DNA from: Halorubrum amylolyticum
GTDB taxonomy: Archaea; Halobacteriota; Halobacteria; Halobacteriales; Haloferacaceae
DNA: 64,000 nucleotides
Assembly: GCF_004114995.1 (NCBI RefSeq)
Contig: NZ_SDJP01000006.1
Coordinates: 1-64,000, forward strand
Direction: 5' to 3'
The stretch's first letter is position 1. Each line of letters starts with the position of its first letter. Below are positions 39,255 to 43,440 of the stretch, piece by piece. The notes beneath the pieces are model-generated. The model was not told where the DNA came from and ran no database searches. It worked only from the letters and a program-made list of their open reading frames with translations. The translations under genes were made by a program, and so were the position numbers.

Positions 39255-40109
39255 CTACTCCTCGCCGTCGCCGCCGTCTTCCTCCCCGCCACCGCCTCCA
39301 GCTCTCCGCTCCCCCTCTTCGTCGACGAGCCGATACGACAGGGACACCGCGCCGAGCGCGAGTGCGATCCCGCCGATCACGTCGGTGAGCCAGTGGATTC
39401 CGAGGTACATCGTCGCGATCACCACGCTCGTCGCGAGCCACGCGGCGATCGGCGTCCACAGCGGGTACTCCCGCCGGGTCAGGACCGCGAACGTCCCGAC
39501 GGTCACCGACAGCGACGTGTGCAGCGAGGGGAAGACGTTCGCCGGCTCGTTCACTTCGCCGGTCAGCGCCATGAACTCCGGGTTGTGGGTGAAAAGCAGC
39601 GAGGTCACCATCTCGGGCATGACGTTGCGCGGCCCGTGCGCGAGCACGACCGTGTACAGCACGAGCCCGATCGCGTAGTTGAGGGCGTACGCGACGATGA
39701 GCCGCTTCACCGTCGTCGTCCGCGGCAGGGCCAGATACGCGAGGAACGGGAACGCGAGCAGGAACACGTACCCGTACACGTACACCGACGAGAAGTACAT
39801 CGTCAGCTGCGGGGAGCCGAGCGTCGCCTGCACCCACGCGACGAAGTTCCCCTCCAAGGCGTAGATAGCCCACGTCAGCCGCAGGCCGAACAGCCCGGAG
39901 ATCGTCTGGAGCGAGCTCCGCCCGACCGCGCTCGCCAGGAGCACCACCACCAGCGCGGCGAGGGGTCTCCGGATCTCCCACAGCCGGTCGCCCAGGTCGT
40001 TCCAGAGCGCGTACAGCCGCCGCGGGCGGATGATGGCGACGCTCGCAGCGAGCAGCGCCGACCCAACCCACAGCACGAGCGAACTCACGACCGACAGAAG
40101 CGGATTCAT
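39255..40109 (-). CDS. PAP2-family membrane phosphatase
   Basis: A 284-residue membrane protein with about six helices. The phosphatase motifs are NVFPSLHTSLSVTVGTF (C2, with the catalytic His) and YLGIHWLTDVIGGIALALG (C3); the extracytoplasmic loop carries the N-terminal motif KRLIVAYALNY rather than a classical KxxxxxxRP. This places it with PAP2_3/inositol phosphotransferase-like members that act on lipid phosphates, possibly in glycolipid or glycan-carrier metabolism. The C-terminus is a Gly/Glu-rich tail. Its ATG overlaps the stop of the solute-binding protein gene by four bases, an unusual pairing. Confidence 0.83.
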   Translation of the reverse strand: MNPLLSVVSSLVLWVGSALLAASVAIIRPRRLYALWNDLGDRLWEIRRPLAALVVVLLASAVGRSSLQTISGLFGLRLTWAIYALEGNFVAWVQATLGSPQLTMYFSSVYVYGYVFLLAFPFLAYLALPRTTTVKRLIVAYALNYAIGLVLYTVVLAHGPRNVMPEMVTSLLFTHNPEFMALTGEVNEPANVFPSLHTSLSVTVGTFAVLTRREYPLWTPIAAWLATSVVIATMYLGIHWLTDVIGGIALALGAVSLSYRLVDEEGERRAGGGGGEEDGGDGEE

Positions 40110-42106
40110 GTGCTCGGCGCGAGCAGCCGCCCCTCCTCGTCGAACCGGTACCCGGCCTCGCGGAGCCGGTCACGGGCCGTCTCGGCGTCGAGCGAGCCGG
40201 ACTCGCCGATGAACGGGTGGACGGGATCGGTCTCTCGGTCCTCCCACCGGAGGTCCGAGGGCACCCACTCCGGAGTGGCGGCGAGCGGCGAGGCGGCGGG
40301 CTCGGCGTACCCGTCGAACGCGACGTCGACGAGGGTCTGTTTGTCGATCAACGACGCGAGCACCCCGCGGAACCGCGGGTTCGACAGCGGCGCCCGCCGG
40401 GTGTTGTATCCAACGTGATAGAACCCGCCGGACCGACCCGCGACGAGCCGCGCGTCGGCCTCGCGCCCGATCCGCGGGACGGCATCCGGGCCGAGGTTCG
40501 AAACGGTCGCGTCAGCGAACCCGTCGCCGACCGCCTGCACCGCGGCGATGTCAGACCCCATCACCTCGATCTCCAGCCGGTCGAACGCCGGCTTCCCGCG
40601 GAATCGCTCGGGGATCTCCGCCAGCGGGTCCGTCTCGTCGCCGCCCTGCCCGTCGTCCGTGCCGTCGGCCGACCCGTCTTCGCCGTCCGCCTCGCGCACG
40701 AGGAAGTGGTCCGGGTTGCGCTCGAAGGCGACCGACTCCTCGGGGGCGGCCTCGACGAAGCGCACCGGGCCGCTCCCGATCGGATTCTCGTTGTTCGTCA
40801 CCACGGCCTCGGTCGTCTCCGCGTCGAACTCGAACCCGGCGATCGTCGCCACCCCGGTCCGCTCCTCCCAGACGTGCTTCGGGAGGATCGGGACCTGGAG
40901 GGCGCGCACGCCGACCGCGTCGTTGACGCCGTCGAGCGTCAGCCGAACCGTCATCTCGTCGACGGCGGTTGCCGACTCGACGGCCGAGACGCGGCCGCGG
41001 AACGTCGGCGTCGGCACCGACGACTCGGTCGTTCCCATCGAGGTGTCCCGGAGGAACTCGTAGGTGAACACGACGTCGTCGGCCGTCACCGGCTCCCCGT
41101 CGTGCCAGTTGGCCTCTCGAAGCGACACCTCGATCACCGACTCGCCGACCCGGTCCCAGCGGGCGGCGAGCCACGGGATCACCTCCCCGTCGTCGATCAG
41201 CGCGAGCCGGTCGTACAGCAGGGAGGTGAAGGTGCCGTAGCGCCGGTACTCGGCGGCGATCGGGTTCCAGTTCTGCGTGATGCGCTCGTCGGTCGTCACG
41301 AGCCGGAGGGTGTCGGCGTCGTCCGCGTCGTCGCCGTCCGTGAGCGGGTTGTCGTCGATCAGCCCCCCGTCGGTCTCGTTGCCGGCGGTCCCGTCGGCGG
41401 CGGTCTCGTTGCCGTCGGCGGTCTCGTTCCCCCCGTCGTCGATCGTTTCGCTCCCGGACCCGCCTCCGTCTGTGCCTCCGTCCGCGCCGTCGACGCGCTC
41501 CAGCCCGAGCAGCCCTCCCACCGAGAGCGGCTGGCGGTTCGTCCAGTTCTCGAAGCGGTCCTCGCGGACCGCGGTGAGTGGGTCGGGAAACGCGACGACG
41601 GTGAACGGCTGTAGCTCGCAGAGGGTCCGCTGAAGGTCCGCAACGACTTCGCGCCGCTCGCCCCCGTCGGCCCGCCGCTGGCTCGCGAGCAGTTCGTCGA
41701 CGCCGTTGACGTCGGTGAGACCGAACGGGTTCTGCCACCCCGACTCCGCGGCGAACCGGGAGTGGATGTACCCGTACATCGCGTCGGGGTCGAACGGCTC
41801 CGCCTCCCGGAACTGTCCGACGTACACGTCGAAGTTGTGGTTGATGAGTACCTTCCGCCGGAGGTCGGTGTGTCCGAGCGTGTTGATCCGGGCGTCGACG
41901 CCCACCGCGTTCAGGTTCTTCGCGAGGTGTCTGGCGATCCGGATCGCGTTGGGGTCGCTGTCGGCGGGCGGGGCGTTGATCTCTACGGTTAGCTGCGAGG
42001 ACCGATCGCGCCCCGCGATGTTCCGCGTGCGGCCGAGACAGCCGGCGCTCAGGGCTGCGATCCCCGTTCCGGCGAGCAGCTCTCGCCGACCGATCTGCCG
42101 CGTCAT
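40106..42106 (-). CDS. Family 5 solute-binding lipoprotein with circularly permuted lobes
   Basis: A 666-residue exported lipoprotein of the dipeptide/oligopeptide-binding class (SBP_bac_5). The N-terminus has a Tat motif (IGRRELLAG) and lipobox Cys (SAGC, residue 23). The domain order is unusual. Residues about 35-205 (IARHLAKNLNAVGVDARINT, then FDPDAMYGYIH, NGVDELLASQRR) are what normally forms the C-terminal part of this family. A linker with three Asn-Glu-Thr sequons (about 208-257) follows. Residues 264-666 (LRLVTTDERITQNWNPIAAE, EPVTADDVVFTYEFL, NPIGSGPVRF, FERNPDHFL, FRGVLASLIDKQTLVDVAFD) are the normal N-terminal part, ending AETARDRLREAGYRF, where ordinary family members continue into the segment found here at the N-terminus. 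No permease or ATPase gene is adjacent. The start at 42106 is set by the Tat signal. Confidence 0.85.
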   Translation of the reverse strand: MTRQIGRRELLAGTGIAALSAGCLGRTRNIAGRDRSSQLTVEINAPPADSDPNAIRIARHLAKNLNAVGVDARINTLGHTDLRRKVLINHNFDVYVGQFREAEPFDPDAMYGYIHSRFAAESGWQNPFGLTDVNGVDELLASQRRADGGERREVVADLQRTLCELQPFTVVAFPDPLTAVREDRFENWTNRQPLSVGGLLGLERVDGADGGTDGGGSGSETIDDGGNETADGNETAADGTAGNETDGGLIDDNPLTDGDDADDADTLRLVTTDERITQNWNPIAAEYRRYGTFTSLLYDRLALIDDGEVIPWLAARWDRVGESVIEVSLREANWHDGEPVTADDVVFTYEFLRDTSMGTTESSVPTPTFRGRVSAVESATAVDEMTVRLTLDGVNDAVGVRALQVPILPKHVWEERTGVATIAGFEFDAETTEAVVTNNENPIGSGPVRFVEAAPEESVAFERNPDHFLVREADGEDGSADGTDDGQGGDETDPLAEIPERFRGKPAFDRLEIEVMGSDIAAVQAVGDGFADATVSNLGPDAVPRIGREADARLVAGRSGGFYHVGYNTRRAPLSNPRFRGVLASLIDKQTLVDVAFDGYAEPAASPLAATPEWVPSDLRWEDRETDPVHPFIGESGSLDAETARDRLREAGYRFDEEGRLLAPST

Positions 42107-42225: not shown

Positions 42226-43440
42226 TCAGATCACGTCGGCGAGCGGCAGCGCCAGCCCGATCGCCCACCCCGCCAGCCCCGCCGCGAGCACCGGGCGATC
42301 CGCGGCGGCGCGCCCCGTCGCGGCGACGCCGAGCGCGGCGAGCAGGGCGACCCGGTGGACGAGGAGGTCGGGCGGCACCGCCACGCCGAGCGCGGCGAAG
42401 TCGATCACGAACCCCGCGCCGAGCCCGACGACGACGCCGAGAAGCGCCGCGCTCGGCTCCGACTCGGGCGTCCGAGCCACGACGAGCGCCGGAATCCCGA
42501 CCGCGATGACGAGGTACAGCGGGGCGGCGATGAGCTTCGGTCCGGCCCCGGGGTACGCGGTCTCCAACGCGACCCCCGCCACCCGGACGCCGACGATGAC
42601 GGCCGCGAGCGCGGCGCCGAGGACCGCGGCGTCGGCGTGTCGAACCGCCTCTCGCCGCGTCCGCTGCGCGAGTTCGACCGCCGCGGCCCGGGTCCGGCGT
42701 CGGAGCAGCGCGCCCCCTAGGGCCGCCAGCGACGCCAGTTCGATCACCGAGACCCAGCCGTCGCTCCAGCCGCCCTCGATACCGCGGTACTCGCGGCTGA
42801 CCTCGGCGTCGACCGCGCCGTGGATGAACTCGTCTTCGAGCCGCACCGACGGGTCGTCGATGCCCGGCACCGTGTGGCGGAGCCGGAACCAGTCGTAGTA
42901 TTCCTCGTGTGCCTGCACCGCGGTGTAGGCGCCGTCCGGCGACTCGTACGCCCGGAGGTGGTCGCGCACGCCGAGGTACGCCCCGTCGTGGAGCTCGAAC
43001 GTCTCCTCCAGCCAGACGCCGCCGTCCGGTCCCTCCACGTAGCTGTAGCGGTCGGAGCTGTGCGCGTCCGCCCAGTCGCGCTCGACGAGCGCTTCCACCT
43101 GCTCGACGTCGGCGGTCGCCGCCGCCTCGGCCGCCTCGGTCTCCTCCCAGTCGGCCCCCGACCGCCCCTCGATCGCCCGCCGCGTCGTCTCCGCGTCGGC
43201 GTCGAAGAGGACGTTGATCGCGAGCGTCCGGCCCTCGACCGAGGTGCTCCGGCTCGTGTACGGCCAGAGCCGGTAGTCGCCGTCGACCGCGATGAGCGAC
43301 GCCTCGTCCACCGCCGCGGGCGCCGGCTCGTCGACGGTCGGCGGCGGCGCCTCGTCGCCCGCGCCGGCGAAGAAGCCGGAGGCCGCGAGCCCGACGCCGA
43401 CCGCGACGAGGAGCGCGACGACGACCGTCGTCCGTCTCAT
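42226..43440 (-). CDS. Membrane protein of unknown function
   Basis: A 404-residue protein not recognised. It has an N-terminal signal anchor (TTVVVALLVAVGVGLAAS), an extracytoplasmic domain of about 200 residues rich in Glu/Asp with DGDYRLWPYTSRSTSVEGR and EEYYDWFRLRHTVPG, and then about six hydrophobic segments from SVIELASLAALGGALL to the end (GLAGWAIGLALPLADVI). The soluble part looks like a sensor or processing domain attached to a membrane bundle. It lies 119 nt upstream of the permuted solute-binding protein on the same strand, so the two may share a transcript, but no functional link can be shown. Confidence 0.7.
   Translation of the reverse strand: MRRTTVVVALLVAVGVGLAASGFFAGAGDEAPPPTVDEPAPAAVDEASLIAVDGDYRLWPYTSRSTSVEGRTLAINVLFDADAETTRRAIEGRSGADWEETEAAEAAATADVEQVEALVERDWADAHSSDRYSYVEGPDGGVWLEETFELHDGAYLGVRDHLRAYESPDGAYTAVQAHEEYYDWFRLRHTVPGIDDPSVRLEDEFIHGAVDAEVSREYRGIEGGWSDGWVSVIELASLAALGGALLRRRTRAAAVELAQRTRREAVRHADAAVLGAALAAVIVGVRVAGVALETAYPGAGPKLIAAPLYLVIAVGIPALVVARTPESEPSAALLGVVVGLGAGFVIDFAALGVAVPPDLLVHRVALLAALGVAATGRAAADRPVLAAGLAGWAIGLALPLADVI

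Follow-up and report, generated by a model that had tools for sequence, protein, structure and literature searches.

The window analysed here, 64,000 nucleotides of a Halorubrum amylolyticum contig, carries on its minus strand an open reading frame of 666 amino acids (ATG at 42106, stop codon at 40108-40106). A preliminary description had proposed that it contains the parts of an oligopeptide-type binding protein in swapped order. The locus raises the question of whether one complete solute-binding protein (SBP) with a rearranged chain is encoded here, and with which partner such a protein may act.

The window protein is a circularly permuted SBP

The first 30 residues (42017..42106, minus strand) comprise a Tat signal and a lipobox (RR7-8, Cys23), in which R7, R8, G22 and C23 are unchanged in an alignment of 58 relatives. 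Export by Tat and lipid anchoring are predicted from these motifs. They are followed by residues 38-203 (41498..41995, minus strand), which Pfam, a canonical profile and hhalign identify as the segment with which canonical SBP_bac_5 proteins end. An acidic low-complexity linker, residues 206-262 (41321..41491, minus strand), bridges the canonical C- and N-termini; its predicted confidence (pLDDT) is below 50 over most of residues 208-259 and its length varies strongly among relatives. A short acidic repeat in this linker holds three N-E-T sequons, and the linker could be N-glycosylated. The canonical N-terminal and central blocks occupy residues 264-657 (40136..41317, minus strand) according to Pfam and hhalign, and end in the breakpoint helix REAGYRF. 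All motifs quoted in the preliminary description are present, although ELQPFTVVAFPD, given there as repeated, occurs in a single copy.

The swapped order was borne out by all three comparisons. Positions 1-279 of the PF00496 (SBP_bac_5) profile matched residues 308-654 (E 9.5e-48), and positions 290-359 were matched by the N-terminal 204 residues when these were searched alone (E 7.6e-4); the protein scores 163.6 bits against a curated cut-off of 32.4. On a profile made from 29 canonical haloarchaeal SBP_bac_5 proteins, the signal and lipobox are followed by columns 385-517 and then by columns 14-376, and all 22 relatives tested showed the same arrangement (columns ~380-517, then ~50-376). Similarly, when the permuted and the canonical alignments were compared by hhalign, the N segment (residues 30-205) corresponded to columns 445-578 (probability 97.8, E 1e-12) and the core (residues 264-666) to columns 117-435 (E 2e-44). 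The two column ranges touch without any overlap and are complementary, so that all canonical blocks are covered; the matches are thus neither collinear nor those of two non-complementary partial domains. Since its SBP_bac_5 blocks stand in swapped order, the protein was classified as a permuted variant and not as a canonical member of the family. It represents a complete family 5 SBP with a natural circular permutation.

The breakpoint is common to 177 permuted copies, in which the core ends at median column 376 and the N segment starts at median column 383. It lies in the loop that follows the (L)xxAGY helix, and profile searches placed it after about residue 340 of Escherichia coli DppA and about residue 356 of OppA. 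A single breakpoint in so many copies excludes chance or misassembly as the source of the permuted order. It also bears on the alternative that the gene is an artefact, or that two partial SBP genes were joined into a non-functional one. Foldseek matched the AlphaFold2 model to the SBP_bac_5 proteins NikZ, AppA and AccA with only moderate TM-scores (TMt ~0.5), and at least one copy, in Salinigranum, is split into two annotated genes, as such a fusion would allow. A value of ~0.5 is, however, expected from a sequential aligner that matches only the larger piece of a permuted chain, although a partial match would fit it too. Against a fusion stand the common breakpoint, by which two partial genes were ruled out, the complementary and non-overlapping halves, the conserved residues in both of them, and reading frames that are intact in tens of species. 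The model itself, built from 58 orthologues, is a confident single fold (mean pLDDT 84, pTM 0.82) with 418 residues at pLDDT of at least 90, most of the N segment included, and with disorder limited to the signal region and the linker (~208-259). We therefore consider a fusion artefact extremely improbable.

No solved permuted structure was among the matches listed in the PDB profile searches; the matches listed were canonical chains, aligned in one or two swapped pieces. The breakpoint falls inside domain III of OppA, which spans about residues 271-470, and the lipid anchor would therefore be shifted from domain I to domain III. Judging from the breakpoint position, the anchor at the new N-terminus would thus belong to the lobe in which canonical proteins have their third domain. 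The canonical cleft motifs are conserved in the alignment of permuted SBPs, and the window protein would presumably still close on a ligand between its lobes.

Distribution and origin of the permuted form

The preliminary description had suggested a survey of haloarchaeal homologues for the same order, and this revealed a large, conserved family. Within the relatives covered by the search, almost every genome of the window's genus and most of the sampled haloarchaeal families contained the full permuted order. It is also present in a non-haloarchaeal family of the same phylum (Archaeoglobus-like) and, as checked against the canonical profile, on alphaproteobacterial plasmids of Nitratireductor, Maritalea, Roseomonas and Ketogulonicigenium. 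Further plasmid candidates from Phaeobacter, Streptomyces, Salipiger, Cetobacterium, Cytobacillus, Rhizobium and Agrobacterium proved to be canonical; they had been mis-scored as permuted because they were judged by match range alone.

Two additional SBP_bac_5 loci were noted in the genome of the window. One (L005, G000:C12:268092-268904) encodes a second permuted protein with a very long tree branch and has a permease gene directly downstream. The other (L003, G000:C3:73359-73940) is an open frame of 306 amino acids that matches SBP_bac_5 positions 168-364 only and is probably a truncated canonical SBP gene. The split Salinigranum copy is located on a plasmid of S. rubrum (L086, 6658-7771), where it is annotated as two substrate-binding proteins and followed by an intact PAP2 gene; it is probably a broken copy or the result of a frameshift.

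Most permuted relatives outside the window's lineage lie in standard operons with two permease and two ATPase genes. This setting applies to many haloarchaeal copies and to the alphaproteobacterial ones, those of Nitratireductor having the permeases downstream. The presence of permuted copies in such dipeptide/oligopeptide-type ABC operons indicates that the permuted fold is compatible with ordinary ABC import. A tree of rotated sequences unites the SBPs that are linked to a PAP2 gene, as in the window, in one clade (SH-aLRT 99 and 100), which is nested inside the permuted ABC-linked clade. The window lineage arose within permuted ABC-linked proteins.

The Archaeoglobus-like permuted SBPs group with canonical bacterial proteins in the tree, which suggests an independent permutation, and a Natrinema pair stands apart. 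A single clade for all permuted SBPs was rejected by the AU test (p 0.003), in a quick tree with long branches. With the same reservation as to tree and branches, these groupings suggest that the permutation occurred at least twice at the same loop. Among the Archaeoglobus-like loci (L192-L195), the permuted SBP genes of L193 and L194 adjoin divergent permease and ATPase genes, and the L192 protein carries a PGF-CTERM C-terminal anchor motif.

Pairing with a PAP2 gene

The stop codon of the window SBP gene overlaps the start codon of the next gene in an ATGA sequence (40106..40109, minus strand). This second gene (39255..40109, minus strand) encodes an integral membrane enzyme of the PAP2_3 family (PF14378, E 5.7e-17) in which the GPRN, PSLHT and GIHWxxD motifs are intact. 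The preliminary description, whose permutation reading is supported here, had missed this coupling and the fact that no ABC transporter is adjacent. Upstream of the SBP gene, a predicted membrane protein of 404 amino acids with zero Pfam matches is encoded (42226-43440, minus strand).

A PAP2 gene lies directly downstream in 92 of the 126 permuted loci examined (L084 onward), nearly all of the remaining ones belonging to the ABC-linked clade. Of 84 orthologous pairs for which a start was called, 70 have a spacing of -4 or -1, or 66 of 80 when four doubtful starts are left out, and the pair recurs on Haloarcula, Haladaptatus, Salinigranum, Haloferax and Natronorubrum plasmids as well as in further genomes. 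In the window lineage, the two genes form a translationally coupled unit, co-translation being no proof of physical contact between the products. Outside the genus, both genes were found in 12 genomes, neither in 11, and the SBP gene only in one, at a contig end (Fisher p 1e-5, a value inflated by the relatedness of the haloarchaea compared). In two genomes both genes are present without being adjacent, which argues for a functional tie beyond neighbourhood. Tandem SBP-PAP2-SBP-PAP2 arrays were found in Natrialbaceae (L091, L156, L161, L167, L174, L183 and L191). Their first and second units split in the SBP tree as well as in the PAP2 tree (SH-aLRT 91-94), indicating that the pair was duplicated as a unit. 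PAP2 paralogues (~42% identical) also occur without a binding protein.

Two observations were made in the surroundings of these pairs. In Natrinema (L182, L187), a second SBP gene lacks a PAP2 gene of its own. Aryl-sulfate sulfotransferase genes lie no more than a few kb upstream of the pair on Haloarcula, Salinigranum and Haloferax gibbonsii plasmids (L084, L086, L087).

No ABC genes of the DppBCDF/OppBCDF type were found beside the window SBP gene or beside any PAP2-linked orthologue examined. An orphan permuted SBP might still serve an ABC importer whose permease is encoded elsewhere, with the PAP2 gene merely co-regulated. This is the main rival to a partnership with PAP2, and the conserved cleft motifs, the permuted relatives in ABC operons, and the other SBP_bac_5 and permease genes of the genome, including the second permuted SBP beside its permease, agree with it. 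It does not account for the absence of ABC genes beside every PAP2-linked copy examined, nor for the stop-start overlap, the duplication as a unit and the joint presence or absence with PAP2, and we regard it as unlikely.

The partner protein was also modelled with confidence (pLDDT 93), and the GPRN, PSLH and HxxxD motifs are invariant in 39 orthologues. The solved structures nearest to the model were the IPC synthase 9vj4 and yeast Aur1-Kei1 (9ivc), followed by PgpB and LpxE, with zero matches better than E 0.001. Taken together, the motifs, the model and its nearest structures point to a putative, probably active exofacial phosphotransferase or phosphatase. The family match, the PSLH and HxxxD motifs and the nearest fold liken it to PAP2_3 enzymes such as Aur1/IPC synthase, from which it differs in being archaeal, in its low identity (~16%) and in being encoded together with a binding protein.

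Proposed role and comparison with known systems

We propose, with a probability of roughly 0.55, that the permuted SBP of the window lineage has switched its partner from an ABC permease to the probably exofacial PAP2 phosphotransferase or phosphatase. The SBP would be exported by Tat, held in place by a lipid at its new N-terminus and close on a ligand, and it would act together with the PAP2 enzyme at the outer face of the membrane instead of supplying an ABC permease with a nutrient. It may present a head-group, a phospho-compound or a lipid-linked substrate to the enzyme; alternatively, it may sense a ligand and regulate the enzyme. The fuller proposal, in which the SBP serves an Aur1-like PAP2 enzyme from outside the cell, as its substrate receptor or as a regulatory subunit, and the permutation arose more than once at one loop, is put forward tentatively, at somewhat under even odds.

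Haloarchaeal chemotaxis uses orphan lipid-anchored SBPs, BasB and CosB. By this precedent, the window lipoprotein might detect an extracellular compound in taxis or stress while the PAP2 enzyme makes or clears a lipid-derived signal, a role that would also fit the strong coupling of its gene to that of a lipid enzyme of the membrane. However, the annotated loci do not share a transducer, kinase or regulator as a regular neighbour, and such a sensor is quite improbable. The change of partner to the PAP2 enzyme remains our preferred reading.

The window SBP resembles the canonical SBP_bac_5 or cluster C proteins (OppA, DppA, AppA, NikA) in having all blocks, the cleft motifs and a lipoprotein export signal, but its chain is permuted and its lineage has no neighbouring ABC permease partner. 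That binding-protein folds can tolerate permutation is shown by the engineered circularly permuted binding proteins that serve in biosensors; those are man-made, whereas the permutation described here is natural, ancient and widespread. Another comparison is offered by LpqW, a mycobacterial protein whose structure (2grv) has an SBP fold. As is proposed for the window SBP, it is an SBP_bac_5-type lipoprotein linked to exofacial lipid metabolism and not to an ABC importer, but the match between the two is marginal and confined to the C-terminal part of LpqW (E 0.068), for which a permutation is not reported. LpqW regulates the synthesis of phosphatidylinositol mannosides, LM and lipoarabinomannan (PIM/LM/LAM) (PMC12421883). 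It may serve, by analogy and not as a family assignment, as a working example of how an SBP-fold lipoprotein can take part in the lipid metabolism of the envelope.

The preliminary description knew of no published account of a permuted SBP_bac_5 protein. Our search likewise found none in the open-access literature, subscription journals lying outside its scope; two candidate papers merely listed SBP_bac_5 or cited permutation in other settings. Binding proteins rank with the most thoroughly studied protein folds. This branch of the family thus appears to be widespread yet undescribed, and it seems to have escaped notice in archaea and proteobacteria because domain searches label its members simply as SBP_bac_5. 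The permuted SBPs offer a natural experiment on how docking to ABC permeases depends on chain topology and on the position of the anchor, and they probably exemplify a permutation that recurred at a single loop. The window lineage, in addition, is a candidate for a change of partner from a permease to a lipid-phosphate enzyme, which raises the question of the role of haloarchaeal PAP2 proteins at the cell surface.
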